Positions 31,228 through 58,500 of a stretch of DNA of 64,000 nucleotides are shown in pieces (the stretch's first letter is position 1; every line of letters starts with the position of its first letter). Origin of the DNA: Branchiostoma floridae (lineage: Eukaryota > Chordata > Leptocardii > Amphioxiformes > Branchiostomatidae); assembly GCF_000003815.2 (NCBI RefSeq), contig NC_049987.1, forward strand, positions 11,740,778-11,804,777, in the 5' to 3' direction. The notes beneath the pieces were generated by a model. It had not been told where the DNA came from, did not search any database, and was given only the letters and a program-made list of their open reading frames with translations. Position numbers and translations under genes: made by a program.

Positions 31228-34200
31228 CTACACATCCCCCTCTGCCTCCAATAAGGGCTCCTTGTCTGCTGTGTCCCCATCCTCCTCCGAGTGGGCCTTG
31301 CCTAGGTTGGTGTAGTGAGCCTGTTTTATAGACTCACTTCTCTCCAGTCTCTGCATGTAGATGCCACAGCCAACAATACACATACCCAACACCAGGATGA
31401 GACCAATTGCAACCCCTGGAGAGAGATCATAATATGATAAGTTTATTGTAAGTTCTTGCCTGAGAGCTAATTGCAAGTGACAAAAAATGACAGACAAACA
31501 ATGGTAAACAGTGTAGTAAGCTTAAGTCTAAAGCTAAACTGTATGACAAATGATTCCAGCTTTTCTAGTAATGTTTGGGTCTTGTGATGTTAAGAGGAGA
31601 GTAGTTCTCTTTCTGTCTGTAAGCGTGGAAATATTTGGGTTTATTGGCCTCTTTAAAGAGCTCTTTTCTTCCTTGATCGTAGAAGGGACATGTTGAAATT
31701 AAATGTGTTATATACAAAGAAATCATCAAGAATTTGTACATCTGTAAGATAGTAGATCTTTATTACTTTTTGGTAGCCAAATGCTGATACATTTTGATTC
31801 TTAATAGTGTGGAAAAACAGCCAGAGATTTACTTAATACTGAGTAGGCAACTATAGCCCCAGGGTACTATCCTTACATTAGTTAACCTGGGCACCTATAC
31901 CCACAGGCTAGGTAATACAATCATCCACTAGTATGACACCTAGGTTGGGCAGAGGTGGGTTAAGCTAACTAAAGGCAGATCACTTTTAATTTGATTTCTC
32001 TCAAATTCTAAAATTCAGTCATCTATAATTACAAAATCAAGTCTGTGTGGCCTATATCTATCACATCTCTCTAAGAAAAAACAAGTGGACAAATACAAAA
32101 CAGGTTAACATAACACCGCTAATTCCTGCAAAGATTAACATCAATAGGATCAAATCTGTGTGAAAACCAATTAACAATAACTGTTGTTCAAACATTCTTC
32201 AGTGTACTGACCATGATTTAAAGTTAGCAGAACAAGTCTTAAATCTCTACAGCAGGTTGCCATAAGGTGTGAGGAGTGAGTTTGAAGAATGACTAACAAC
32301 TTACCAAGTTTGTAAGTACAGAGGAATGCAGGAACTCCAGTCACTGAGATAGAGAGGGGCACAAGAGGCAGTACCCAAACACCAATGGCAAAGAGAAGTG
32401 AGCACACAACAGACAGAAATGTGGATAGATAGTTTATTACACATATTTAGAATTCAGAAGGACATTATGAGCTGTACACAACACAAGGAGTTTGGGAAGG
32501 CACAATAGCGTAGATTCTCAAATCTTATGACTTTATATACCCAATAGGGGACTATGTTACTAGTATCTAAAAACCCTACTAAATGCACAGCCAAGGAAAG
32601 TTATTAGGTACGTGAGCCTTGCAGATTGTAAGCCTATTATGCAGAATGTAAGTCTATTCAAGATGAAAAAGGCACATCACATGACAAAGTCAGGAAGCCA
32701 GAAAAGATGACTGTGAAACAGTCTTAAAATGCTACACCACATGTAAGTTTCATGTTTGTTTGTGTATGTTTACTTACCTATGATTTCTGGTGTGGAGGGT
32801 GGGGGGCCCCAACTGGTCGGCTTCTTAACAAGGTGGGCCACCTTTTGGTAGCTGCCGTTGTTTGGGTGCGGGTCCAGGCCCAGGATGTGGCACATGAGCG
32901 GGTAGATGTCCACATTATTGAAGGGTTCAGACAGGAGGTTGGAGCGGAAGGCTGGTCCGTGGGCCACGAAGATGGGGTTCATGGGAAGGTAGCTGTTGTT
33001 GTAACCATGGTTACCTGATGAGGGGATTGTCAAAATTGTTGAAAAATGTTAAAAATAAGAATCATTGAAAAATGTACACACTAAAACACTTAATATGGTA
33101 CTGACAGGAGACCCTTATATCCACTTTTCTCTGACCTGATAGTTAGCAGTTGCAGGTGCCATAGATATTTTGATTTATTTCCAACCTAACTTTCCCAAAA
33201 AAATGTCCATTCAAAACTTAATTCTATGTAGGGTGGAATATACAAAAAATGGAAAGGTAACCATTTGTAAGCAAAACATGTCTACCTTCAAAATAGTCTA
33301 GCCCACTGCTCTTTCATGCTAAAACTACTAATCTTTATGTGGTGACCAGCCCCTCCAGCTCTGTCCTGCCACTACATAATCTGTTCACTGACAAACACCA
33401 CAAATTTTCTGCTACTTTGCCAGTGACCATGGTCCTGGTCATTGACCTTAATTGTTTAGAGAAGAAGAGGAAGAGGAAGGAATTGAGCAAAAACAACATG
33501 TTCCCTTTCTGTGAAGGTAAACATAATTATGTCATACCTGTGACGCGAAAACGTTTGATACGGGTGTTCCGGACCGGGTGATAACTTTCCGTATGGCACG
33601 GGCTCTAAGTTGTATCACACGGGCTCCATTTGAATAAATCGAACTATTTCGAGCGGGACGAGTGTGGCGCAGTAGAAAATTCGAATACCTAATTCCGACG
33701 TTAGAACAATACTGTTGTAACTCTTTTTGTTTGAGGGCACCAAATTTGTTCAACTTCTGGCGCATTTCGCATCAAAACATGGGTTTTCTCATAACATAAA
33801 TAAAATACAACACTGTGTATTCCACATCACCCTCGGTCCCAGCCCTCCCGCTGGTCGGATCACCCTCCGGCCTTTGGGCGATCCTTCCCGCGGTTGGGCT
33901 GGTACCTCGGGTGATACGGAATACACCGTGTTGTATTCTATATTTATTACCTCACCTTTGTACAAGTTCCACTCCCTGCTAAGGCTGGCATTCTGTGCGA
34001 TGGTCCAGCCAGGATCTGCCACTGCGATGACAGGCATGATCCTCCTGTTGTGTCTGTAGTGGTACTGGGCAGGGATGTCCTCCTTGTAGTACACATGCAT
34101 CTTGGGGTGGGCATTGTGTAACGCTGTGTAGATGTGCTCCCTGGTCACTTCTGTAGATGCCGGTAAATCATGTATTAAGATACATATGTTGATAGTTATA

Positions 34201-37200
34201 CATCAGATTAAGAAAACATACAAAGAGAATTTAACATGTATTTGTAAAGCCGGTTTAACCTGACCTTTGCACATTTATCTGCAGGTATCATTTAAAGCTA
34301 TCTATTGAGACTACATGTATATGCAAATGTCAGCAGGTAAGAAAAACTGGTTGTGTAAAAGATAACTCTTATGTTCTATATGCAAATGATATTTCAAATG
34401 CTGGCTTCCAATTAGAAAAAAATACATTAAATGTTTGATTCATTGGTTGATTGTGGGTGTACAAAGGCAACTTTGTTCCACTTTTCAAGATTAAAAAGGT
34501 TAGGCTCAGTTTTATGGCACCATAATGATAACAATTTCAAAGTCCAAACCAGCCCAGCAGACTCCGTATCAGAAAGTATTATGCATATTATGCATACGTA
34601 TGTGCAGAAAAATCTATTACTAGCATCTAAACTTGAAAGTTCATCAGTGTTGGTAGAAGTCATTCTGATGAATAACTGGTTATGGTGAGGATTGCATGAA
34701 AACCTGTCAGAAATTTCTTGTGTTGGAATTACACATTTACAGTCAAACTTAATTCAGAGTATACTATTACGAGCATCTGTTTCAATGCCACTACATGTAC
34801 TTCTATTGCTAAGTTACACTTACAAGCAGTGCTGTTGGTGAGAATATCAGGTACTATTTGGACACTGAACAACAAGCATGTGGTTTTCCACAATCCAATT
34901 TTACGCCTAGTCAACTTCTATTGTCCCCTTCAATAGCCTTGGGACATGTCTGCTATCACTTAATTACTATCAGAACAAAACCTGCTGAAGGTAGACTATG
35001 AATAGCTATATAGAAAAACTCCCTCAGTCAGAGTAAACATGATCAATTGTAACAGTGGTTGCTGTAGTCAAGGATGTTATTGTTGTAACCGACTGAACAC
35101 ATTTCAAACAAACAAAAAAGGAATGGAATACTAGTCAGTAGACTAGTGTGATAGGTTTAGGCTCTCGGACTGATTGTTTCCTGTCAGATCAGGCAAATTT
35201 TGAACATTTCACTAAAATTTTGGACATTTTAGTCTACTACATCAACAAAGAAATCATAGTATCATACAAGTGCTTAGTAATAACATCCCTTTTGTATGCC
35301 TCTAACATAGGCATTGTGGTAAGGTAAGGTAATGGAATTTGGGTCAGGTGTATCACGATTGTAGTTCACAATGCATTTTTGAAATTCAATTCCTTTCAAG
35401 GAAAATAAGGGATAATGCCGTTATAACAGCCCTGGATGAATAACAATGGATAACAAATACAAATACCAATACGAATTAAGAAACCAAATGGTATTGAAGT
35501 CCTGAGATTGTGCATGGAACAACTAGTGGGGCCACGTAGCACAGTGGTAGTGTATTCGGCCCGTGACCGAGAGGTCGCCGGTTCGAATCCGCCTGCCGTG
35601 TTGCCGGTCTTGTGCCCTTGGGAAAGGCACTTGACACCACTTTCCTCACTTTACTCAAGTGAAAAATGAGTCGTCCCTCGGATAGGACATTAAATGGAGG
35701 TCCCGTGTATGGGGAGAGCCATACCCCATACACGTTAAAGAACCCCCACACGTGCGATGGTGCGGTGTGAGTGGATCAAAAACTTACAGTCTTGTGTACG
35801 TCTTACGTACCGTGCTTGGAGTCCTCAGCCTAATGAGGTTAAGCACGTATAAAGAAGAAGAAGAAGACTAGAATTCTAAAACTTTAAGCTTACTAGTAGG
35901 TACTCACTTGGTACATATGTCTGACTGTCTATCCTGCCTTACTAAGTGTGTCTGGGACTACTACATGTATACACTTTTGTCTTGAAATCAGTTCAGCCAT
36001 CTAAACCCTAATGTGATCCATTGCACATTGTCATATGACATATTGTTGTCCTGTGACGCACTACATAGATAAAACCTGTGACGTCACCAAATCTACAATC
36101 AGCTTTGACAAAACTAGCTCACGATCACACAAAAAAAATCAATCCACTCACCATCATGTGGCCAGATGGCCGCTACAGGTGTTCTGTCCACCCACAGGTA
36201 AGTACTGGGGTCCAAGTAGCGGTCAAGCTCAATCACTCTTTCCTGGGACACCTCCATCATGCCATGGTCACTTGTGATGATCACGTTCATTCTCTCAAAC
36301 AGCCCTGCCGCCTTCAACTCATCTATGAGATAGCCAACTGTCCTGTCCACCATGTCTAACGTTTCGTCTATCTCCTTAGACTCTGGGCCAGCAAAGTGAC
36401 CGGTATGATCTGGTTCTTCAAAGTATAAAACTCCCAAGTTGATTGGATCTTCCGAGTCTTTGAACCAGCCAACCATGGTGTCTACTCTTTCCTTGTAGGG
36501 AATGGACATATTGTAGGCTGGAAGATGTCTGAATGGTAGGGTGTTATTGAATTGGGCTTGCATGCCAGGCCAGTTCAGAACACCGCTCTTACCGCCTAAA
36601 TGTTTTTGATTGGTTATCCAAATAGGTTCACCGCCGACGTCCCACCATCTTGGATCGGAGGTGTTCACATGGAACATTTCCCCCAGTTCTGGGTCATACA
36701 TGGAGTTGGCGACGATTCCGTGGCTTTCTTCGTACATGCCTGTCGCTATGGTGAAGTGGTTGGGGAATGTTTTGGTAATGAAACTGTTGTGGACCCATTT
36801 TGCCCGAACACCTGTATCAAATGAGGCAGAGAAAAATACATCATTGTGCTACCTACACGGTAAATACTAGTATATAAATTTAATAATAATGTTACCTAAA
36901 GCCTAAAGAAAAAAAATCTTGTGTTTCCTGTTTACCAACCTACCCCAGAAAAACCCGCCAACCCTAGCTTTTTTGGATGGACAGTGGAGTCACATAGTTT
37001 CCAGTTAGAATCTTTATTCAGCCTGCTTCCTATTCAAGTAAAAAAAACTGCTTGTCCTACCTAGTATCCAATCAAGGATAAATGCATCCACAACAGATTT
37101 GTAACCATTATGCACAAAATCAAAGTTTGACATTTGATAATATAACTTATGTAAGTGCCCTCATGAATTTTAGTTTCACTTTGTTAAATTGTATTGTACA

Positions 37201-38327
37201 AGAGTTTTGGCCAAAGTCTTAACAATTTATTTAAAAAATATAATCCCTACATACCGACCCTATCTTTTTCAGAACTGAAACATGAAACACAGCATTTTTT
37301 CCTAGGGAGTAGGTCATACTGAAATTAACAAAAAAGTCATAAATTCATGTTCAAAGTTCAGGACCCATCCATCACAAGTTCTGCCTTAAAAGAAGCCTTA
37401 TTGCATACCATATTCATAACTAATAAATTTTGTGTCCCTTCTGAAAGACGATTTCATGGAATTCTTGATCCGGCTTAATGCAGCAGGGACCGACCTTAAT
37501 CCATTAAAAGCTCATGGTTTATCCAGCGTAACAAATTCTGTAATACAGTACAGGTATTCCCAAAGGATGGAGATAAATAGTAACATGCCAAAGAGATCAG
37601 GTCTCATTCAATTCCTTCCTGATTGCTGAGGTAAGGAAATGTTAATGTTACATTACTTGCATTAGTAATGTATGTAGTATAGGCTTCATCATCAAGTGCC
37701 TTGGAAAGAAAAGATTTTCTATCTGTTTTCCCCAAAGTACATTTTCCTCGACTATAATATCTTGTCATCTGACTATGAGTATGAAGATTATAAGATAAGT
37801 AAAAGCTCAAGTCTTGAATAGACAGTATGTCAAAAAGCAGGGAACAACAGGATTATTGTACAACACAGCTACAAATCTGACGTGAAAAATTTCAAGAACA
37901 AAAAGATCAGAGTTAATAGTTAAAAGTAACTCTTCAATCAGTGATTCTTGAAGTTGAAAACACGTAAAACACGTAGGCCGTTCCGTGATCAAGAATTACA
38001 TCTAAAATCTGGAGGTTACGTGTTTCATGTGTTTTCAAGAGTCACTGATTGAAGAAATACGTTATAACTTACTTTATAACTTTAATATTCAATGAAAAGA
38101 TCAAAGGTTCACGCCCTTTCAGTGTTTCCACACCCACCTGTTTGGACAAGATACTTGAAGTTGGGCAGTTGGACCCTATCCTGACTCCTGTCCAGATAGT
38201 CGTACCGGAACCCGTCAAAGGAGACCAGCAGCAGGAGAGGCCCGTCATGGACAGAGTCTGTCCGCCCGCCCAACATCAGGAGAACAAACACAAGCTCAAA
38301 CACACGGACGGCCGCCATCATAGACAT
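31228..38327 (-). CDS. ENPP4/5-like ectonucleotide pyrophosphatase/phosphodiesterase (ENPP-A)
   Basis: Alkaline-phosphatase-superfamily ectoenzyme cleaving phosphodiester or pyrophosphate bonds outside the cell. Exons (plus coordinates, read right to left): 38138-38327, 36152-36811, 33956-34150, 32778-33014, 31228-31415; total 1470 nt, 489 residues. An optional 39-nt exon at 32305-32343 also keeps frame. Signal peptide about 1-25; metal/catalytic set all present: D38 (SFDGFR), nucleophile T78 (KTFPN), D198 and H202 (PDHTGH), D245-H246 (SDHGM), H351 (GNHGYNN). One hydrophobic helix near the C-terminus (GVAIGLILVLGMCIVGCGIY) and a short acidic cytoplasmic tail ending EAEGDV give type I topology, as in ENPP4/ENPP5. 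ATGs at codons 3 and 4 are alternative starts. Which vertebrate ENPP it matches best needs a tree. Confidence 0.9.
32305..32343 (-). CDS. Candidate 39-nt cassette exon of ENPP-A
   Basis: On the minus strand CTCTCTATCTCAG precedes and GTAAGTTG follows a 39-nt segment encoding VTGVPAFLCTYKL between exons 32778-33014 and 31228-31415. Phase 1 at both ends, so it can be included or skipped. Inclusion would lengthen the region just before the membrane helix. Good splice sites but no independent conservation evidence. Confidence 0.4.
33540..33950. mobile_element. MITE-like element with inverted ends next to ENPP-A exon 3
   Basis: The segment 33796-33948 has inverted arms of about 50 bp: AATACAACACTGTGTATTCC with ATCACCCTCGG and CCAGCCC on the left, and the inverse GGGCTGG, CGGGTGAT, GGAATACACCGTGTTGTATT on the right. 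GC-rich, unlike the surrounding intron. Sequence 33540-33700 (GGGTGATAACTTTCCG etc.) looks related in composition and may belong to the same or a neighbouring element. Confidence 0.6.
35527..35872 (+). mobile_element. tRNA-derived SINE in ENPP-A intron 2
   Basis: tRNA-like head with A-box-like TAGCACAGTGGTAG at 35537-35550 and B box GGTTCGAATCC at 35580-35590. A tRNA-unrelated body follows (GCCCTTGGGAAAGGCACTTG, then TTTCCTCAC...CAAGTGAAAAATGAG) and the element ends in a (GAA)n tail. It is antisense to ENPP-A. A second, diverged family member lies at 40478 and beyond. Confidence 0.85.
37932..38054. repeat. Inverted repeat in ENPP-A intron 1
   Basis: CTTCAATCAGTGATTCTTGA with AAAACACGTAAAACACGTA is inverted about 50 bp later as TACGTGTTTCATGTGTTTTC with AAGAGTCACTGATTGAAG. 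Arms of about 40 bp. It could be a small MITE; no target duplication identified. Confidence 0.6.
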
Positions 38328-40644: not shown

Positions 40645-43600
40645 TTACTCAGCACTGTACAGGGAGCACAGAGACATAAACGTGTTGTGTACATCATCGA
40701 GTAGCAATTGTCTCGGGTTATCTTTCCATCGTATCCAAGAAATATAAATTGAAAACTTGGCGATAGTCAACAATGTAATGTTACATTTGTTATGTTCCAA
40801 CAGTACATTTTTAACAGATTGATTGTCTTCAGTATTATTTAATCTACCCCAAAATTTCCTTAGTCTAGTGCATTCTAAAAACATGTGTTCGTAGTTTTCC
40901 AGCTTATTACAGATATCACAAAAAGGACTGTATACATTTCCAGACGTATCTCTTATTTTCCACTTGTTTAGGAGGTATCTGCAAGGAAGTATTTTATGGA
41001 GCAATTTGAAATTAAATTCGCGGAGCTTGTTGTATCTGATATAGCATGTCTGGGACTCCCAGATAGCTTTCCAATCAAGATTAGGGGTTACAGAATCCCA
41101 ATATGCTTGGGCAGTAGGTCTTACAACATTTTCCATGAGACTAACAGAATACAAATATCTACTGTTAAGTGTATCAAGTGAAATCATGCTGGAATTGAAC
41201 CATACACAAGTGCCATATAATGTTTCACGACCAGTACAATCGTTTTCATCAGTCCAGCTATAGCCTATAGCTCTTTTGACCTGCATAAATTCACTCATCC
41301 AGTTTCTTTTGTCACTTAGCTTTCTTAACAATATATCAGATGCTACATATTCAGAGTTTTCACATAAGTCATTTACATATATCAATCCGCTCCTAATCCA
41401 GTGTTCAAAGAACAATGTGCTGTTATTGAGCTTGTAGTTTTTATTACACCAAATTATTTCTTGTCTTTGTCTTACAAAGTCTGTTTTTCCCCCTCCAAGT
41501 TCGTGCCAGGCCAAGACTACCTGTCTATAGAAGGGTGGGAGCACTCTAAGAGAAGGAGCATCTCCTCCTTTACAAAAATTGAAGCGGAAGAGAAGGAAAT
41601 CTTTTCCGAAATGATTAATAAAGTGTAATGGTATAAGATGCCAGTGGCGCTCTTTAGTGTCATCGAGTGCCGACTGCATTAGTCTTTTAACCCACACAGC
41701 CTGTAGGCTACTGCGTTTTGAATATATATCAACCATTTTTAACCCTCCTTCTTGGTAATTTGAGTACAGCACTTTTCTTTTTATTTTGTCCGGCTTGCGG
41801 TTCCATAGAAAAGAGAAACATGCTTTTTCAATACGTTTTAAGGCCCAGTCAGGTGTTGAGATCATGGACATATTATAAATTAATTGAGAGATAGCTAATG
41901 TTTTTATAATCAGTACTTTACCATAAAGGGTTAATTTGCGACTAAGCCATTTTAGAAGCATATTTTCGAAGTTATCTATTCTTTTTTCCCAATTCAAAGT
42001 CTCACACTCTTCCTCTGACAGACCATAGTAAATTCCAAGCGATTTAATGGGTCTATTTGGCCAGTCGATTCCGAAGGGAGTGTCTCTTCGTCCTCGATTG
42101 GCCCCAATCCACATAGCTTCACACTTTCTACGATTCAGAGTAGGTCCAGCCACATTACTAAAGTCATCTACAATCTGTAAGGCATTTCTTATAGAATCAT
42201 CTCCACAAAGAGTAAGAGTTGTATCATCTGCAACTTGACTTATCTTTAGTTCAAACATATTATCATTAATCTCGACATTAATACCCTTGACTGTGCATGT
42301 TTGTCGAATTTTAGTACCAAGAATTTCAACTACTAGGTTGAACAGTAGGGCTGACAGAGGACATCCCTGTCTGATTCCTCTTTGCAGTTTGAAATAAGCA
42401 GATTGCCAACCAGCATTTATGATACAACTCTCTATGTCAGTATACATGGTCTTAACTATGGAGGTAAATGTGGGTCCAAACCCAAACTTGTCTAAGGTTC
42501 TAAGCATAAAATTCCAGTTTACCGAATCAAAGGCTTTTTCAAAGTCTAGCCAGACGACTGCAGCAGGTATGTTGTAAAAATTGGAGTAATAAATAACGTC
42601 CTGTATAAGTCTAACATTTTGTCCAATAAATCTGGACTTAATGTAGGCGGTTTGATCCTCAGAAATCAATTTTGGAAGAAAGTCCTGCAGTCGTTTTGCT
42701 AGGACGACTGCTAATATCTTAAAATCAGTATTCAGCAAACTTATTGGTCTCCAGTTGGATAAGTCAGTCTTATCACCCTTTTTATAAATAAGTTTTAATA
42801 AGGCTCTCTTCTGTGTTACTGAAAGGCGTTTATTTTCTATCCCTTCTTTCAAGGATTCGAAGACCATGTCTCCTATTTCTTTCCAGAATTTCAGGTAGAA
42901 TTCGGCTGGTAAGCCGTCAGTTCCGGGAGCTTTATTTTGCTTCATGTATTTCAAAGCTGAAAAACATTCGTTTTTTGTTATAGGATCATCAAGCAGAAGT
43001 CTGTCCTCATCCGAAAGAGAGGGTACATCAACCGACTCAAGAAACGTGTCGATTTGTTCGTCAGTAGCAGGATTATCACAACAATAAAGATTTTCATAGA
43101 AAGCTGATTCCAAATCTAAAATTTTAAACGGATTTGTTTCCTCTCTGTTCTCATGCTTTAATCTAGTAATGGTGTTTTGTTTTGAACGGGAGCTCTCAAG
43201 AGATAAGAAATATTTGTTGGATCTTTCCCCTTTTTCGATCCATTGTTCTCTAGATCTTACTTGTGCCCCTTTCGCTTTATATTCATATATAGTTTCTACT
43301 TTTGACTTAACCTGTGCATATACATCAAGAACATCTTTATCTAACGTCTCATCTATTTTCTTATCAAGTTCTGTTAACTGAGTTTCCAAGCGCACAAGGT
43401 CGTTATTCAGTTGGAATGCTTTTTGTCTAGAGAACTTATCCGTAAAGTCCTTAATCTTATTTTTGCAGATTTCCCAGAGCATTTGTTTCGATACATTATT
43501 GTCTTTAAACTCTTTAACGACATCAATAAGAGTGGACTTAACACCATTAACATAACAATCATCTGAAAGGTGTGAAGTATTGAAACGCCACACTCCGGGT

Positions 43601-44331
43601 CCTCTGGCAAAGTCTGTCAGTAATAACTTTAAAAATATCGCTTGATGATCAGTTTTTATAGAACAGCGTATGTCACATTTCACAACAGAATCAATAATTG
43701 ACTTCTGAATGAGCCAAAAGTCTATTCTACTTGAAATTAAGTCTGGGTTCTTCCGCCTCCAGGTGAACTGCCTCACCTGGGGGTGGCGCTCCCGCCAGAT
43801 ATCCACGAGTTTTAGCTGTCTTTTAAATCTAATTAGTTCTTTTTCTCCTGCGCTAGGCGCCAGAGATTGTTTACTATTCCTATCCATAGCTGTGTTATTT
43901 ACCATATTAAAGTCCCCTCCAGCAATCAGATTATCGACATTGTTGTCATTAATCCAATCCCTTAGAGAGGTAAGGAAGGTTTGTTGCTCCTTCTTTTCCG
44001 TTGGTACATAAACATTAAGAATTGTAAGATCTTTTAACTTAATCAATAGTTTTCTACCATCATTTCCTTTGATTACATCTGTGACATTCATATCAATCTT
44101 CTTTTTACAAAGTATGGACACACCTCTACTATGAGAGTCACCAAAACAATGGAATTGAGGTCCATTCCAATCTCTTTCAAAGACATCCATCTTATCTTCA
44201 GTGTAATAGGTTTCTTGTAAGAGAAAGATGTCTGCCTTCTGGCGTTCCAACCAATGGTAAAGGGTTGTACGTTTACTGTGGTTTCTAAGACCTCGAACAT
44301 TAAGCGAGATAAAGGATAAGTTGGATGTCAT
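40645..44331 (-). CDS. LINE ORF2: APE endonuclease and reverse transcriptase
   Basis: 1228 residues. Residues 1-235 form an APE-type endonuclease (SLNVRGLR at 9-16, catalytic Glu in LQETYY at 40, GGDFNMV at 138-144, TDH at 227-229) that nicks target DNA for target-primed reverse transcription. Reverse transcriptase follows: APGTDGLPAEFY about 468-479, NWRPISLLNTDFKILA about 526-541, catalytic Asp in WLDFEKAFDSVNW about 594-606, RQGCPLSALLFNLV about 654-667, and the active-site motif VADD at 700-703 in place of the more usual FADD. The C-terminus has a zf-RVT-like Cys/His segment (CDICNKLENYEHMFLEC). L1/Tx1 group by motif style; clade not proven. No frameshift or stop in the frame. Confidence 0.92.
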   Translation of the reverse strand: MTSNLSFISLNVRGLRNHSKRTTLYHWLERQKADIFLLQETYYTEDKMDVFERDWNGPQFHCFGDSHSRGVSILCKKKIDMNVTDVIKGNDGRKLLIKLKDLTILNVYVPTEKKEQQTFLTSLRDWINDNNVDNLIAGGDFNMVNNTAMDRNSKQSLAPSAGEKELIRFKRQLKLVDIWRERHPQVRQFTWRRKNPDLISSRIDFWLIQKSIIDSVVKCDIRCSIKTDHQAIFLKLLLTDFARGPGVWRFNTSHLSDDCYVNGVKSTLIDVVKEFKDNNVSKQMLWEICKNKIKDFTDKFSRQKAFQLNNDLVRLETQLTELDKKIDETLDKDVLDVYAQVKSKVETIYEYKAKGAQVRSREQWIEKGERSNKYFLSLESSRSKQNTITRLKHENREETNPFKILDLESAFYENLYCCDNPATDEQIDTFLESVDVPSLSDEDRLLLDDPITKNECFSALKYMKQNKAPGTDGLPAEFYLKFWKEIGDMVFESLKEGIENKRLSVTQKRALLKLIYKKGDKTDLSNWRPISLLNTDFKILAVVLAKRLQDFLPKLISEDQTAYIKSRFIGQNVRLIQDVIYYSNFYNIPAAVVWLDFEKAFDSVNWNFMLRTLDKFGFGPTFTSIVKTMYTDIESCIINAGWQSAYFKLQRGIRQGCPLSALLFNLVVEILGTKIRQTCTVKGINVEINDNMFELKISQVADDTTLTLCGDDSIRNALQIVDDFSNVAGPTLNRRKCEAMWIGANRGRRDTPFGIDWPNRPIKSLGIYYGLSEEECETLNWEKRIDNFENMLLKWLSRKLTLYGKVLIIKTLAISQLIYNMSMISTPDWALKRIEKACFSFLWNRKPDKIKRKVLYSNYQEGGLKMVDIYSKRSSLQAVWVKRLMQSALDDTKERHWHLIPLHFINHFGKDFLLFRFNFCKGGDAPSLRVLPPFYRQVVLAWHELGGGKTDFVRQRQEIIWCNKNYKLNNSTLFFEHWIRSGLIYVNDLCENSEYVASDILLRKLSDKRNWMSEFMQVKRAIGYSWTDENDCTGRETLYGTCVWFNSSMISLDTLNSRYLYSVSLMENVVRPTAQAYWDSVTPNLDWKAIWESQTCYIRYNKLREFNFKLLHKILPCRYLLNKWKIRDTSGNVYSPFCDICNKLENYEHMFLECTRLRKFWGRLNNTEDNQSVKNVLLEHNKCNITLLTIAKFSIYISWIRWKDNPRQLLLDDVHNTFMSLCSLYSAE

Positions 44332-44377
44332 GTTGAGACAAAAAGAAACTCACAATCATAAGTCCATGAAGTTTAGC

Positions 44378-45553
44378 CTATGCGTCATCTTCACTTGAGC
44401 TTGTAAGCGTTGACCCTGTGGCATCAGACCCCGGGGGACTGCTCCAAGAGTGCCGTCCGGCCTCTATCAGCTCCATTACTCGTGGGTCAGGTGCCTGCAC
44501 CTGTCTGCTGGGCTGGACACCTGCTGGTTCCTTCCGACTCTGTTGTATCTGTCTGCTATTGGGCTGTTGTCGACTGTTACTTCTAGTCACCCTAGACCCT
44601 GTCGACTTCTGGCCCCCAGGTCTCTGTTGGTCTTTTTTGTTCTTCTTTTTGCTAGCCGCAACAGTAAAGTCAGTGATCTGGCTTTGTCTTGCCGCTGCGC
44701 TCCGTTCAGGTTCAGTGTCTGCGTCTTCACAGGAGTAGCCCTCAGAAGCAGGTACAGCACCCCTCACTTCAGCTCCTGTCTCAAGACTGTTTTCGCCTGC
44801 AGAGGCTACAACTCCGCTACAGTCAGCTCGCTTGTGCCCTAGTTTATTGCACTGTGAGCATCTCCACTCAGAGGTGCAATCTCTCTTCAGGTGTCCTTTA
44901 CCAAGGCACTTTGAGCACTTTCTGTCATTCGTCTGGTCTCGATAGAAAATCCGAGCCCTCCAGCGTCCTGCCAACTCGACGTTCCTAGGAATGTTATCTG
45001 CCGGAGTAGCAGGCTCTTGCATATAACCAAATCTGTCTCCGGTTTCACAGTTGGTTAAGCGGCCATCTACTCTTAACTTCTCGCGCCTGAGCGGTCCCAG
45101 AAGCTTGGCGCCGTATCTTCTTAGGCCCTCTGCAACAACACTATCGTCAACGGAAAGTGGTACATCCTTGACTGTGATGCGTACTCCCTCGTTCTGTCGA
45201 AAAGGATGTACATCTCGTAGGTCGACATGTTTGTTGCGAACATTAAATCCAGACACGAGTAGTTTTGCTCGATCGGCGATTTCACTTAAGTAAATTCGCC
45301 ACATACTTCTCACCTGCTGGATGCCTAGGATTTTGGAGCCATCAATGACGCGACTAATTGCTTTATACACCTCGACGTTGGAAAAGTACGGCTCGTTCTG
45401 AGATACCTCATGTACATCCCTCTCCAGGAAGAACAGGGGTTTGCAGCCCGACCTCACGTTAGATCCAGCAGTCTCTTCCCGTGATGTTGTTACAGGGCCT
45501 GTTGTTGCTGCTGCCTGCGCGTAGCTCGAGGGATGTGTCATGGCGGTCGCCAT
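44378..45553 (-). CDS. LINE ORF1: nucleic-acid-binding protein with two CCHC zinc knuckles
   Basis: 391 residues. Two zinc knuckles of C-x2-C-x4-H-x4-C type at 213-226 (CSKCLGKGHLKRDC) and 232-245 (CSQCNKLGHKRADC), preceded by an RRM/DUF4283-like middle region and followed by a long Ser/Gln/Arg-rich tail. It coats LINE RNA to form the ribonucleoprotein used for retrotransposition. It lies directly upstream of ORF2 with a short gap, so ORF2 translation probably depends on reinitiation or readthrough of the same transcript. Start ATG chosen as the first one in frame; upstream is the element 5' UTR. Confidence 0.88.
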   Translation of the reverse strand: MATAMTHPSSYAQAAATTGPVTTSREETAGSNVRSGCKPLFFLERDVHEVSQNEPYFSNVEVYKAISRVIDGSKILGIQQVRSMWRIYLSEIADRAKLLVSGFNVRNKHVDLRDVHPFRQNEGVRITVKDVPLSVDDSVVAEGLRRYGAKLLGPLRREKLRVDGRLTNCETGDRFGYMQEPATPADNIPRNVELAGRWRARIFYRDQTNDRKCSKCLGKGHLKRDCTSEWRCSQCNKLGHKRADCSGVVASAGENSLETGAEVRGAVPASEGYSCEDADTEPERSAAARQSQITDFTVAASKKKNKKDQQRPGGQKSTGSRVTRSNSRQQPNSRQIQQSRKEPAGVQPSRQVQAPDPRVMELIEAGRHSWSSPPGSDATGSTLTSSSEDDA

Positions 45554-45754
45554 GATCCAACTTTCCGCCGCACTATCGGCTTTTCTCAGTCCGTCTGCGC
45601 CTCTCCAGCTTGTTTACCGGCTCGTGGGAGGCACAGTGTGGTCTTGGATATCTCCGACACACGATTGTCTAATATAACACCTCAAGACTTTGAAATTGTA
45701 TGGAATAAGCGATCGTAAGCGTAAGAGCGCTCGAAAACCCGTCTCCCTTGGGAG

Positions 45755-46706: not shown

Positions 46707-46712
46707 TTTATT
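46707..46712 (-). terminator. Polyadenylation signal directly after ENPP-B stop
   Basis: AATAAA on the minus strand begins two bases after the TAG of ENPP-B (stop at 46715-46717). An unusually tight 3' end if used; it would give almost no 3' UTR beyond the signal. Confidence 0.45.
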
Positions 46713-46714
46713 GG

Positions 46715-49037
46715 CTACTTAAGAATATGCTGCACGTTCTGAAGGGACCCGTTGTTTGGGTGCGGGTGCAGGCCCAGGATGTGGCACATGAGCGGGTAGA
46801 TGTCCACGTTATTGAAGGGTTCAGACAGGAGGTTGGTGCGGAAGGCTGGTCCGTGGGCGACGAAGAGGGGGTTCATGGGAAGGTAGCTGTTGTTGTAACC
46901 ATGGTTACCTGGAGAGGATAATCATGGTAATAGAAAAAACATCAATCAGACAGAAAACACAATATCAAAAGTCCATAGAGTAGAAGTAGGATTTTATATG
47001 TAGAAGGCTTTTTCTTCCAACACACGTGGTATCACAGAGGATCAAATTTTCAACAACCACTGTCGCCTTCTTCAGGACTAATGACAGTGACTTCCGAATG
47101 TTAACTCATGAGAGTTATACACAAGTAACCTTAATGACACATGATATTGTGTGTGAGTGATGTCAGCAATTGGTCAAAAGTGCCAGGAAGATTCTATCGT
47201 CCACCGTCTCTGTTTACTGATGGCCCTGTTGTATATGGCCTCCTTGATTTTACGTCTTAGCCTTAGGTATAAATGGCTCAGGATTAAGATTGTACAAACA
47301 AACCCAACCTTTCGGTACCCAGCCAGTGCTGATGTTCTGCACGATGGTCCAGCCAGGATCTGCCACTGCGATGACAGGCATGATCCTCCTGTTGTGTCTG
47401 TAGTGGTACTGGGCAGGGATGTCCTCCTTGTAGTACACCTTAAGGTGGGGATGTGCCTTGTGAAGTGATGTATAAATGTACTCTATACTGATGCCTGAAA
47501 ATCCAATGATTATCATTATCAAAACCTTTTTGATGATGTTCACAAATTATGGAATACATTGTACAAGGATACAAAAAAATCTTAACAGAATGTTTTATGC
47601 AATAGAGTATCTGCCTTTTCTTTTCTCTATTTTGTCCTTACCACTCACCATCATGTGGCCATATACACATGTAGCTGCAACAGGAGTTGTATCCACCAGC
47701 AAATATATACTGGGGTCCAGGTAACGATCCAGCTCAATCACTTCATCCTTAGATACCTCCATCATGCCATGGTCACTCGTGATGATCAAGTTCATTCTCT
47801 CAAACAGTCCTGCTTGTTTTAACTGACCGATAAGGTAGCCAACTGTTCTGTCCACCTTGTTTAACGTCCGGTCCATCTCTGGGGAATCCGGTCCATACTT
47901 GTGACCGGTTTCATCCGGTTCTTCAAAATACAAAACTCCCAGATTGATGGCATATTTATCATCTGTAAACCATTTTATCATAGTGTCTACTCTTTCATCA
48001 TAGGGCATGCTGCCATTGTATTGTTGAAGATGTCGGAATGGTTGAGTGTTGTTGAACTTGACCGTCATACCAGGCCAGTTCAGGACACCACTCCTGCCCC
48101 CCGGGTGCCTTTGATTGGTTATCCAAATTGGCTGTCCGCCGACGTCCCACCATTTTGGATTGGTGGTGTTGTGGTTGTGGAAGCCTTCCTGTAAAACTGG
48201 GTCGTACATGTTGTTAGCCACAATGCCATGACTTTCCTCATACATCCCCGTGGCTATGGTGAAGTGGTTAGGGAAGGTGACTGTGATGAAACTGTTGTGG
48301 ATCCACTTGGCTCGAATGCCTGCATGTAAAAGTGTAACAAAGCCGCATTACAGTCAGACTACAGTACTTGCCAGAAAAAAAGAACTTCAATCGATCTAGA
48401 ATGAGTAACACTCAATAATATTTCTTGTTCTGAAATAGTTTTTCTTCTTCCAATCTAGAGTCCTTGTGCAATTTAAAACTCAATAGATGACTATTAAAGA
48501 GTAACTTGTTCTGAACTGAGATTACATACATTTCCAATTACATATGGCTTCTTCGATGAAGATTGCTGGATATCACCCCAACAGCTATTAAAGAGGAGCG
48601 CGTCAGTAAATTTCCCGAGTCCCGACTACTACTAACGTTATATCTCCACGACTTAACCTCTGCTTGGAGAGTACTCAACAGCAACTGTTTCAAGATTCTG
48701 CATTTGCAGCGACTCCTGGCGAATTATACTTGCAGCACAGCTTCGAGGCTAACAGATATCTCTCTCAAAATATAGGGTAGGGGTCGCGGGTCATACGACT
48801 ACAACTGTACAACGTACACTACAGACCATTACGGATAAGGTACTTCAGGTTGGGCAGTTGAACCCTCTCCTGACTCCTGTCCACATAGTCGTACCGGAAC
48901 CCGTCAAAGGAGACCAGCAGAAGTAGCGGTCTGTCATCGGACGACGCCGAGCTTCCCACAAACTGCAGTATTATAAACGTTACAGAAAGAAACCACAGGA
49001 ATCTGAAGAAGATTGGAAAAACTTCCCAGTCTGCCAT
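46715..49037 (-). CDS. ENPP-B: paralogue of ENPP-A, truncated and possibly frameshifted
   Basis: Same fold and gene structure as ENPP-A. Exons (plus coordinates): 48827-49037, 47649-48319, 47309-47494, 46715-46908. Signal-anchor-like hydrophobic N-terminus (IFFRFLWFLSVTFIILQFV), SFDGFRYD, nucleophile in TVTFPN, PDETGH, SDHGM and GNHGYNN all present. Two lesions: an extra 8 bp near 47662-47671 changes the expected A-I-W-P-H-D-G end of exon 2, so the conserved donor leads to a stop in exon 3; and codon AAG in ENPP-A aligns with TAG here, so the membrane helix and tail are missing. A new GT inside the insertion (donor after 47669) would restore phase 1 and give a 413-residue secreted form without that WPHDG segment. 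Exon 1 ends in GTCTGT, a weak donor. Either a recently decaying gene or a soluble variant. The next gene is divergent, about 0.8 kb away. Confidence 0.75.
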
Positions 49038-55800: not shown

Positions 55801-58239
55801 CTTGTGCATCAAGGTAACAGTATAACTATTATGTCAAACTATTAAGTTAAATGTTGTTTCTAAAACATGTCTTCTGCTGGAGAAAGTCCTGAGTTTTTAT
55901 CCAAGGATTTACCATTCTGTGTTTGTGTATTTCTAGGAGAGATTCCCACCAAACATCTACTACAAGATCTTCACCCACCGAACCATCATCGACCTGTGTG
56001 CCAACAGTCCCAAGGACTACACTAAAGCTGCCATACTGAGAGTAGAGGCCAAACAGAGACACAACAGAACGATACACAAACCCATAGTGGATGGTGAGGG
56101 AATGTGATATTTTGATGTGCTGCATTTAGGTACAGCAGTAAGGAATAGCCTGGGTTTTTTCTTAACTTGAAAGTTCATCTGTGTTGGTAGAAGACATTCT
56201 GCAAAAGTTTAATTGTAATTTCTAACACACAAGTTGGACTTTAATACCCAAATTTTCAACTGAACATCTCCAGTTTTTGTCAAGGAATGAACAATCCAAT
56301 TTGTTTTTTCTTTCTTTTTCATACATTGATTATAATTCTGACCTTTTCTTTCCACACAGACAAGGTGGGCTGGTATGAGAGAATAGAGAACAATGGCTGG
56401 AGACTTGTGTCTGACAGAGTAAGTGTCATTGAAAATTGTACCTACATAGTTACAAGCTAGTCCTACATAGCTCTATAGAATTGATACAGTGCGATTAAAG
56501 TATATACTAATAGATTGCAACATAACTTTGAAGTGTATTCCGTGTATGCACAATTTGTCAAAGACATACATCAGGAAGTCATTTCCATTAAATATGCTAT
56601 AAACAAACTCAAATGTTCAAGCATGCAGAATATTTAGACTTAAATCCTCCATTGCACTTGTATCATTACTATCATTGGTGAAAAAAATTGACCCTTACCG
56701 ATACATGCTACAGATTGAAGACTTCAAGCAGAGTGGTTTCAGTGGAATAATAAATGTTCCTGTCTACTTTACCCTCAGTTACTACAGAATGCCCAGCAGG
56801 ACATGATTACATGGGAATCATCCAGGAAGAAGGTGGACTTCCACCACAATAAGGTTTGTTTTCTTGTATTGTATTTCCTGAAGGAAACCTAGCACAACAA
56901 CCCTTCCTGTGTTTTGTTTTTTGTGTCCTTGTTGTAAAATGTACATGGTGAAATTTGCGAATGGTACATGTATTCAAACCAAAGAGTAGAATGGCCCATG
57001 CCAAACAGAAGTGTGATATCATTTCCTTCATGTTGATACATGTTCTAGGTATACTTGCTTGTCACTCTTTTGCTGAACAGCTATCAATGTTTCTTACACT
57101 TAGTTGAGGAGAAAACAGGATGTGGAGAAGAAGAGGAAGAAGAAAAAGGTGGAGTGGATGATGAAAATGTGAGTATATTTTATGCATGTCATTTTGTGGT
57201 TTTTCAACAATAGTGTACCAATTCAAACATGCATCTTTAGTGCAAAGCATACAGATTTCTACCCCTCTTTTTGATTTTGTGATTTTCCTTTAGCTTTAGG
57301 CGAAATTTTTCATTGTCAGTTACCCTTATCCATCTACAATTTTATTAGCGAGTGTAGGGCATTAGTGAAACCACTTTATTCTTCTTACTAACTAGGTACA
57401 AAGAGGGCATGCTGCGCTCCAAGTCGACAGACTCGCACACCTCGACACTGATCCAGGACGCAGCAAACGGGATTGTACGCGTGGCCCAGGAGAAGGGACC
57501 CGACTCCATCCAGGACTGGGAGGTCGATGAACTCTTGGACTGGACCAACGGACTCAACTTTGACGAGTAGGTTTTCAGTAGATTAGACAAAAACTGTAAA
57601 GAACGGAAGCCTCTGTCAAGCCAGCATACTTTTTCCATAGCATCCAAAAATGAATTTATGAATGATTTTCCTATTTTTCCATGAATGAACAAACAAGTGA
57701 TGTGTGGCAGAGGTGGTAACAGTCAATCAAGAAACTGACTGATGACAAGTTGAATGTAGAAAATGTCAGATGATATAACAGTTGTGTTGCCCATCATAGG
57801 TACATGGACACATGGAAGGAGATTGGAACAAGTGCTGCATCAGAGAGACAAATAAGTAAGTACAATAGCTACTCTTTATACCCTTTTTAGCCATTGTTAT
57901 ACTTTCCAATTTATAGCTATTTCAACCAGTGTTTACAGCTTGTATAATTCATGTTCTCACACAGAGAACCAGACTTTGGAAGGGCATTTTTCTTTTCATT
58001 GCTGACAACTGTTCATCAGCATGATTAAATTTCTGATACCTGGTTTGTCTTTCACAGATATCATCTCGGCAGATCCTGCGGCCTTTGCGCTGTCGTCTGT
58101 GGCACACCTGATAGATACACCGAAGGGCTCACGTGTGTCCGGGGCACAGAGTAAGCACCAGTCCCCCCACCCTGGGGCCATGGACTCCCATCCCCCCTCC
58201 AGACCCACCCCTGGTACACCTGAACCTGAGGCATACTAA
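49812..58239 (+). CDS. C11orf65/MFI-like protein with IQ motifs
   Basis: Vertebrate C11orf65 (MFI, described as a mitochondrial fission regulator) is about 310 residues; here about 677 are predicted. Exons: candidate first 49812-49874 and/or 50412-50463, then 50990-51036, 51284-51369, 51705-51837, 52232-52747, 53344-53444, 54734-54920, 55333-55479, 55937-56093, 56360-56418, 56779-56853, 57104-57168, 57396-57566, 57800-57855, 58058-58239; phases agree from 50412 on. Perfect IQ motif IQRVWRGHFVR in exon 51284; further IQ-like IQKAWRR and IQRAWRRH in exon 54734; Asp-rich stretch in exon 52232. The conserved C-terminal part includes YRYYRDLINFKGKGDPSMML, INPNESKLLD, FPPNIYYKIFTHR, GWYERIENNGWR, DVEKKRKKKKVEWM and WEVDELLDWTNGLNFDEYM. 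IQ motifs suggest calmodulin binding. The N-terminus is uncertain because of the nearby gap of Ns. Confidence 0.85.
50734..50833. other. Assembly gap of exactly 100 N, flanked by similar sequence
   Basis: One hundred N, a standard placeholder for unknown length. Sequence on the left (TTTAAACATCTAACTGTATACCAGTA) recurs on the right from about 50864 with few changes (AAACATCTGACTGTATACCA), so the gap sits in a local duplication. An MFI-like exon could be hidden here. Confidence 0.95.
52500..52610 (+). repeat. (GAT)n-rich coding repeat, poly-Asp tract
   Basis: Runs of GATGATGATGAT in exon 52232-52747 encode several Asp blocks. In-frame triplet repeat, so length changes would alter Asp number without shifting frame. 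Confidence 0.85.
53498..54159. mobile_element. TTAA-flanked nonautonomous DNA transposon (piggyBac-like)
   Basis: 662 bp between TTAA (53494-53497) and TTAA (54160-54163). Ends GGTCTCGGACCGGAGTT and the imperfect inverse AACTCCGACCCGGAACC, with another ACTCCGG nearby. GC-richer than the intron around it and without a meaningful ORF. TTAA duplication is the hallmark of piggyBac; the superfamily is inferred from that alone. Lies in the MFI-like intron 53445-54733. Confidence 0.7.
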
Positions 58240-58500
58240 GCACTAGTCCCCCACCCAGGGGTCGTGGACACCCCCTCCTCCAGACACCACCCACTCGAGA
58301 CCCACCCCTGGTACACCTGAACCTGAGGCATACTGAGCACCAGTCCCCACCCAGGGGTCGTGGACACCCCCTCCTCCAGACACCACCCACTCGAGACCCA
58401 CCCCTGGTACACCTGAACCTGAGGCATACTAAGCACTAGTCCCCCACCCAGGGGTCGTGGACACCCCCTCCTCCAGACCAACCCTTGGTATAACTGAACC
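58146..58500 (+). repeat. 98-bp minisatellite overlapping the MFI-like stop codon
   Basis: Units start at about 58229, 58327 and 58425 with GAGGCATACT(A/G)AGCAC, and a shorter related copy at about 58146-58228 lies within coding sequence. Contents: CCACCCAGGGGTCGTGGACA, CCACCCCTGGTACACCTGAA. The stop TAA at 58237-58239 lies in the first full unit. Confidence 0.88.

Follow-up and report, generated by a model that had tools for sequence, protein, structure and literature searches.

An exon 2 frameshift and a nearby in-phase splice donor in a tandem ENPP4/5-like gene of Branchiostoma floridae

ENPP-B of Branchiostoma floridae is, by its sequence, one of a tandem set of ENPP4/5-like ectonucleotidase paralogs, with predicted phosphodiesterase activity. 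Its second exon holds 8 extra bases that break the reading frame. Judged from this sequence, there is close to an even chance that the gene, as a copy or as an allele, has recently lost its function, perhaps with some leaky in-frame product spliced from a GTAAGG donor that lies 7 nt beyond the conserved one. If splicing does rescue the frame, it probably does so at this downstream site and not at the GT born of the insertion.

The window analysed is a stretch of 64,000 nucleotides (contig NC_049987.1, positions 11,740,778 to 11,804,777). Its two ENPP genes, ENPP-A and ENPP-B, both lie on the minus strand; a third copy, ENPP-C, is found on the plus strand about 96 kb from ENPP-B, with an open frame and its exons within L009 2888-7668. 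ENPP-A has five exons that form one open frame of 487 aa, with a membrane segment discernible by eye near the C-terminus. Four exons of ENPP-B were identified, the exon borders of all copies being read directly from the sequence.

36152..36811, minus strand: exon 2 of ENPP-A, the intact comparison copy, 660 nt
38138-38321, 33956-34150, 32778-33014 and 31228-31415, minus strand: the other exons of ENPP-A
48827..49037, minus strand: exon 1 of ENPP-B, with a signal peptide-like start (by eye), the SFDGFR motif and a weak donor, ATG/GTCTGT
47649..48319, minus strand: exon 2 of ENPP-B up to the conserved donor ATG/GTGAGT, 671 nt; PF01663, 231.5 bits
47309..47494, minus strand: exon 3 of ENPP-B, with a weak donor, AAG/GTTGGG, and a core common to A and C
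46715..46908, minus strand: exon 4 of ENPP-B, with the final TAG

Exon 2 of ENPP-B scores 231.5 bits against the PF01663 catalytic domain, and that of ENPP-A 229.5 (cut-off 23). Among solved structures, the ENPP-B product joined through the downstream donor matches ENPP5 best (389.8 bits), followed by ENPP4 (373) and then ENPP7 (274.2); ENPP5 and ENPP4 are also the top matches of ENPP-A exon 2. The ENPP5 score of the spliced ENPP-B product is on a par with that of ENPP-A (390.4 bits), and the extra residues introduced by the downstream donor sit in an alignment gap. The motifs SFDGFR, TFPNH, EEPDxTGH, SDHGM and NHGY, which we take to supply the nucleophile and the metal ligands, all appear in the ENPP-B alignment, NHGY only if the frame is restored. 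ENPP-B thus has the catalytic motifs in common with ENPP4 and ENPP5. These two carry a C-terminal membrane anchor; ENPP-B differs from them in its frameshift and in that no C-terminal membrane exon was found for it.

The lesion is evident from the ends of the second exons. In ENPP-A the exon closes with GCC ATC TGG CCA CAT GAT G/GTGAGT, and in ENPP-B with GCT, 8 further nucleotides and then ATA TGG CCA CAT GAT G/GTGAGT. The extra bases follow the A-A codons and lie 15-17 nt upstream of the conserved donor. The earlier note had placed them near 47662-47671; they are real, and alignment to ENPP-A puts them close by.

47664..47673, minus strand: stretch holding the 8 extra bases by alignment to ENPP-A, with placement at 47666-47673, 47665-47672 or 47664-47671
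47485-47483, minus strand: TAG reached in exon 3 via the conserved donor, the fourth codon of that exon

The difference in exon length, 671 nt in ENPP-B against 660 in ENPP-A, is an 11-nt gap made up of these 8 nt and a one-codon indel elsewhere, and exon 2 of ENPP-C lacks the 8 bases and keeps its frame. After the insertion the frame arrives at the conserved donor in phase 0, and splicing there reads ATG ATG/GCA TCA GTA TAG, exactly the stop in exon 3 that had been claimed before. The standard splice pattern is thereby blocked from giving the full product. Apart from the final TAG of exon 4, the insertion is the only frame lesion seen in exons 1-4. Elsewhere in the window a single match to the 8 bases, with 3 mismatches, was judged unconvincing as a template, and no stray amphioxus DNA spanning the insertion turned up when viral contigs were scanned by pattern.

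It is conceivable, if rather doubtful, that the 8 bases are an error of the reference assembly or an artefact of haplotype merging and that the gene is intact in the animals themselves. The available text of one study gives heterozygosity of 3.2-4.2% for amphioxus species and about 3% for the B. floridae parents of one pedigree (PMC12862219), and the accessible part of another records 20,731 gaps in the large scaffolds of the published B. floridae assembly (PMC9673378). As far as these sources go, heterozygosity so high makes segregating alleles and assembly faults both plausible, and together with the gaps it favours an artefact, as does the standing of the insertion as sole frame lesion, the exon 4 TAG aside. 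ENPP fragments on C163 and C18 with equal or nearly equal scores also suggest that unmerged haplotypes persist in the assembly. Against an artefact, nothing elsewhere in the window resembles the inserted stretch closely enough to have served as its template, exons free of repeats seldom, in our judgement, suffer an 8-nt error, and no other copy seen in the assembly speaks against the insertion. When the assembly was searched at the DNA level, with 40 of 186 candidates scored, neither a second copy nor a haplotig of ENPP-B appeared; besides ENPP-B the matches comprised its two paralogs, one portion of a more distant ENPP gene and the dispersed repeat of intron 1. Because no second ENPP-B copy was seen, the assembly neither confirms nor contradicts the 8 bases.

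What becomes of the frame depends on the choice of donor. The 25 GT sites from 47900 to 47500 were scored with a human donor matrix (PWM), which may not fit amphioxus, and the named donors were scored also by pairing to the 5' end of U1.

47643..47648, minus strand: conserved donor GTGAGT; PWM 6.34, top of the 25; U1 pairing -10.3 kcal/mol
47636..47641, minus strand: downstream tandem donor GTAAGG, exon end 47642, phase 1; PWM 4.39, second of the 25
47663..47668, minus strand: GTGTAT, the insertion-born donor of the earlier note, exon end 47669; PWM -1.81, rank 9 of 25; in-register U1 pairing +0.9 kcal/mol

The GTAAGG donor (GTG/GTAAGG) is intronic, 7 nt downstream of the conserved donor and outside the insertion, and pairs with U1 at -5.8 kcal/mol in register and -8.5 kcal/mol when free. 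Because 8 and 7 make 15, its use brings the reading back into frame as far as the end of exon 4 at a cost of five additional residues, which places an in-frame alternative site beside the lesion. In its product TCVYGHMMVSG replaces the IWPHDG of the conserved frame, and the remainder is in the conserved frame. The homologous bases of ENPP-A are GATTGA, which is no donor. The hexamer GTAAGG is present at the exon 2 end of ENPP-C, where the open frame suggests that it is used. GTAAGG was also considered as the ancestral donor of ENPP-B and rejected: without the insertion it would, by hand reckoning, give phase 2.

The GT after 47669 is present as claimed, restores phase 1 and leaves the frame open to the end of exon 4. 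Use of this insertion-born donor, with IWPHDG dropped, is nevertheless barely plausible. In favour of it are its phase and the absence of stops through exon 4; against it are a PWM score of -1.81, a positive U1 energy, a rank of 9 among 25 and the proximity of two much stronger donors within 30 nt. Sites scoring at least as well are common, numbering 1586 of the 8029 GT sites in the window, and 13 of the 34 strong donor-like sites (score at least 6), ENPP-B included, have an in-phase GT as good or better within 60 nt when stops are ignored. With -1.81 against 6.34 for the conserved donor, and comparably good in-phase sites ordinary near strong donors, the proposal of a rescue donor made by the lesion lacks support. 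The earlier note had offered a choice between a pseudogene and a lesion that created its own rescue site, which is fair in part: its frameshift is real and the conserved donor is top-scoring, but the inserted GT is a poor donor. It overlooked the stronger in-phase donor downstream and the in-frame acceptor within exon 3, and it left out of account the weak donors 1 and 3 and the missing anchor exon.

The downstream site is less ordinary than the one at 47669, although the test of it was post hoc. At a threshold of 4.38, just under its score, in-phase sites within 60 nt accompany two of the 34 strong sites, ENPP-B and one other, and within 10 nt downstream ENPP-B alone. GT sites scoring at least 4.39 number 86 of 8029 in the window, about 0.00067 per base per strand, and by post hoc arithmetic the chance of an in-phase one is about 0.3% within 10 nt downstream and about 3% within 60 nt on either side.

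These figures bear on a second reading, in which ENPP-B is a working gene whose exon 2 boundary has slid, the insertion being compensated by GTAAGG so that the major mRNA encodes a secreted ENPP. The five further residues would fall between the conserved PVAA strand and the next helix, if the secondary structure is as presumed. This is unlikely, though a serious contender, and we give no better prospects to the broader claim that it would embody: a frameshift in an animal gene absorbed by a splice-site shift, with a net gain of 15 nt of exon, a remodelled loop and a secreted ENPP paralog kept alive. The downstream donor does restore the frame to the end of exon 4 and ranks second of 25 GT sites over 400 nt; the site is lacking in ENPP-A (GATTGA there); an in-phase site of this quality within 10 nt downstream is expected in only about 0.3% of cases and occurs in ENPP-B alone of 34; and the match of the spliced product to ENPP5 is on a level with that of ENPP-A (389.8 against 390.4 bits). 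Set against this, the conserved donor, which lies upstream, is stronger by both scores, and donors 1 and 3 of ENPP-B are weak. The human pattern of tandem-site usage also counts against a slid boundary: in the available text of a human catalogue, minor sites are on average weaker than major ones, usage grows with relative strength, and at similar strength a minor site is used more when it lies upstream than when it lies downstream (PMC8055015).

The frame might also be restored on the far side of the intron. A second, candidate in-frame acceptor lies 14 nt into exon 3 (exon from 47480), and if the conserved donor were joined to it the frame would be open and the linker would have the length of that in ENPP4 (10 residues, hand count). 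Such splicing would have to pass over the first AG that follows a pyrimidine-rich stretch, as well as two intervening AGs, and is very improbable.

Whichever splice form prevails, the sequence upstream of the lesion indicates that ENPP-B is not an old pseudogene; its exon 2 is constrained like those of paralogs A and C. Between A and B, exon 2 up to the insertion gives dN 0.169, dS 1.147 and dN/dS 0.147, and the three pairs among A, B and C give ratios of 0.13-0.16, with dS near saturation. A has 11 residues peculiar to it, B has 15 and C has 29, and at 24 sites all three differ. Where A and B differ in exon 2, ENPP5 agrees with A at 7 sites, with B at 13 and with neither at 29, and ENPP4 with A at 12, with B at 9 and with neither at 28. 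The A-B ratios of exons 1, 3 and 4 (0.52, 0.47 and 0.55) come from few sites and are confounded in exon 1 by signal peptides that differ between the copies, and in exons 3 and 4 by the shared cores.

ENPP-B has no stop upstream of the lesion. Neutral evolution of exon 2 was simulated by equal-rate substitutions from ENPP-A in 400 runs. At 0.57 substitutions per site, half of dS, a mean of 7.3 stops accumulated and none of the 400 runs was stop-free; when divergence was set at 0.05 substitutions per site, 29% of runs escaped stops. Since neutral simulations accumulate stops and ENPP-B has none, the gene can have been unconstrained only briefly, if at all, and any relaxation of selection on exon 2 is at most very recent. 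A neutral phase too short to leave stops is compatible with ENPP-B, as the 29% of stop-free runs at 0.05 substitutions per site indicate. The recent constraint expected of a young loss is visible in the exon 2 dN/dS of 0.147, the PF01663 scores, the agreement with ENPP4/5 and the lack of stops before the lesion.

Exons 3 and 4 cannot date ENPP-B, and their use for this purpose was ruled out, the cores being common to A, B and C.

33991-34139 and 47335-47483, minus strand: shared exon 3 cores of ENPP-A and ENPP-B
32855-33027 and 46749-46919, minus strand: shared exon 4 cores of ENPP-A and ENPP-B
L009 5664-5849 and 6435-6674, plus strand: the corresponding cores of ENPP-C

The longest identical runs in exon 3 are 97 bp for A-B, 97 for A-C and 116 for B-C, and in exon 4 they are 41, 36 and 95 bp, respectively. 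Exon 2 is 70-76% identical among the copies, with runs of at most 26, and intron 2 of ENPP-B is no more similar to A or C than shuffles are. Because a more distant ENPP copy is only 69-74% identical in exon 3, the cores are read as the result of gene conversion and not of general conservation.

Other signs of decay accompany the frameshift. Donor 1 of ENPP-B, GTCTGT (48821-48826, minus strand), has a PWM score of -0.55 and C at +3, and donor 3, GTTGGG (47303-47308, minus strand), scores 0.67 with T at +3. The four donors of ENPP-A score 5.9-7.1 and the four of ENPP-C 4.2-5.5, and all eight have a purine at intron position +3, where donors 1 and 3 of ENPP-B have a pyrimidine. These two donors look eroded, to judge by their letters, and of the ten top-scoring GT sites lying no more than about 100 nt from each, none was at once better, in phase and stop-free. 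Exon 4 of ENPP-B ends in a TAG that aligns to a lysine codon in A and an arginine codon in C, with an AATAAA at 46707-46712, 2 nt past it. ENPP-B therefore ends in exon 4 without the C-terminal membrane anchor that is present, by eye, in A and C. When the part of the window beside ENPP-B was searched in translation with the tails of A and C, no convincing membrane exon emerged, the only matches at E<0.01 being the exons of ENPP-A themselves. The product of ENPP-B is thus a predicted secreted form, which may possibly be a function as well as a lesion.

The favoured reading, a young loss of function, draws these observations together. We infer the expression, splice choice and polymorphism of ENPP-B from its DNA. 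ENPP-B would have been under purifying selection until recently and would then have acquired a young frameshift, either as a fixed loss or as a segregating allele. The conserved GTGAGT donor, intact and best-scoring, routes the shifted frame to the TAG of exon 3. Because this donor scores highest, most ENPP-B transcripts should reach that stop, and most of the mRNA would presumably be unproductive, a target of nonsense-mediated decay. Use of GTAAGG may yield a minor in-frame mRNA that encodes a secreted ENPP in which AATCVYGHMMVSGIS replaces AAIWPHDGIS, and the insertion-born donor at 47669 is probably hardly used. Besides the constraint described above, the order of the donor scores (6.34 for the conserved donor, 4.39 for the downstream one and -1.81 for that at 47669), the pyrimidine at +3 in donors 1 and 3, the exon 4 TAG with no membrane exon found beyond it and the open frames kept by copies A and C all speak for a young loss. 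Against it stand the otherwise intact frame over four exons and a strong in-phase donor only 7 nt away, for which a dead copy has no need.

That splicing can restore a frame broken by an indel is already known, and the mechanism is not new. The available text of a study of CRISPR-edited rice describes, after an indel, a frame-restoring splice isoform at 39 of 73 loci; such isoforms were commonly scarce, and a relative level of 0.1 was exceeded in 6 of 73 genes (PMC8893660). ENPP-B resembles these lines, as far as that text describes them, in that a non-3n indel could be bypassed via a shifted splice site that restores the frame; it is unlike them in that its insertion is natural and lies in an animal gene, and in that the bypass is predicted from sequence. 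Like the tandem alternative donors described in the accessible part of PMC8055015, it has two donors a few nucleotides apart, and the minor role is expected of the weaker one; unlike them, its shift of 7 would break the frame of a normal gene and mends that of ENPP-B. Compensatory frameshifts in expressed transcripts, in the part of the survey at hand, likewise show a local out-of-frame stretch, bounded by two changes of frame, with the downstream frame kept (PMC1449882). The cases given there differ from ENPP-B in being cDNA-based and nearly always caused by indels, at least two arising by alternative splicing (PMC1449882, in part). The ENPP-B locus itself seems to be undescribed in the literature searched, on amphioxus ectonucleotide pyrophosphatase and invertebrate ENPP4/5 duplicates.

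Should the downstream donor be used, ENPP-B would show, in nature and in a chordate, how splicing can absorb a frameshift, and the two intact sister genes close by would serve as controls. Otherwise the gene would represent an early stage of loss within a tandem array. On either outcome, a frameshift beside a donor cannot be called a null from DNA alone.

Several repeats lie in and around these genes. Between ENPP-A and ENPP-B, at 40645-45613, is a non-LTR retrotransposon with two ORFs, one of 411 aa that includes a zinc knuckle and one of 1234 aa that includes an endonuclease and a reverse transcriptase. Intron 1 of ENPP-B contains a short dispersed repeat (48585-48691), on which 43 of the 51 assembly-search matches fell, and some of its genomic matches elsewhere form close inverted pairs. 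Self-comparison of the window also revealed imperfect tandem repeat arrays at 2344-2897 and 58152-58478, the former of which reads as a repetitive RCFRLSLFQTLVV-type open frame.
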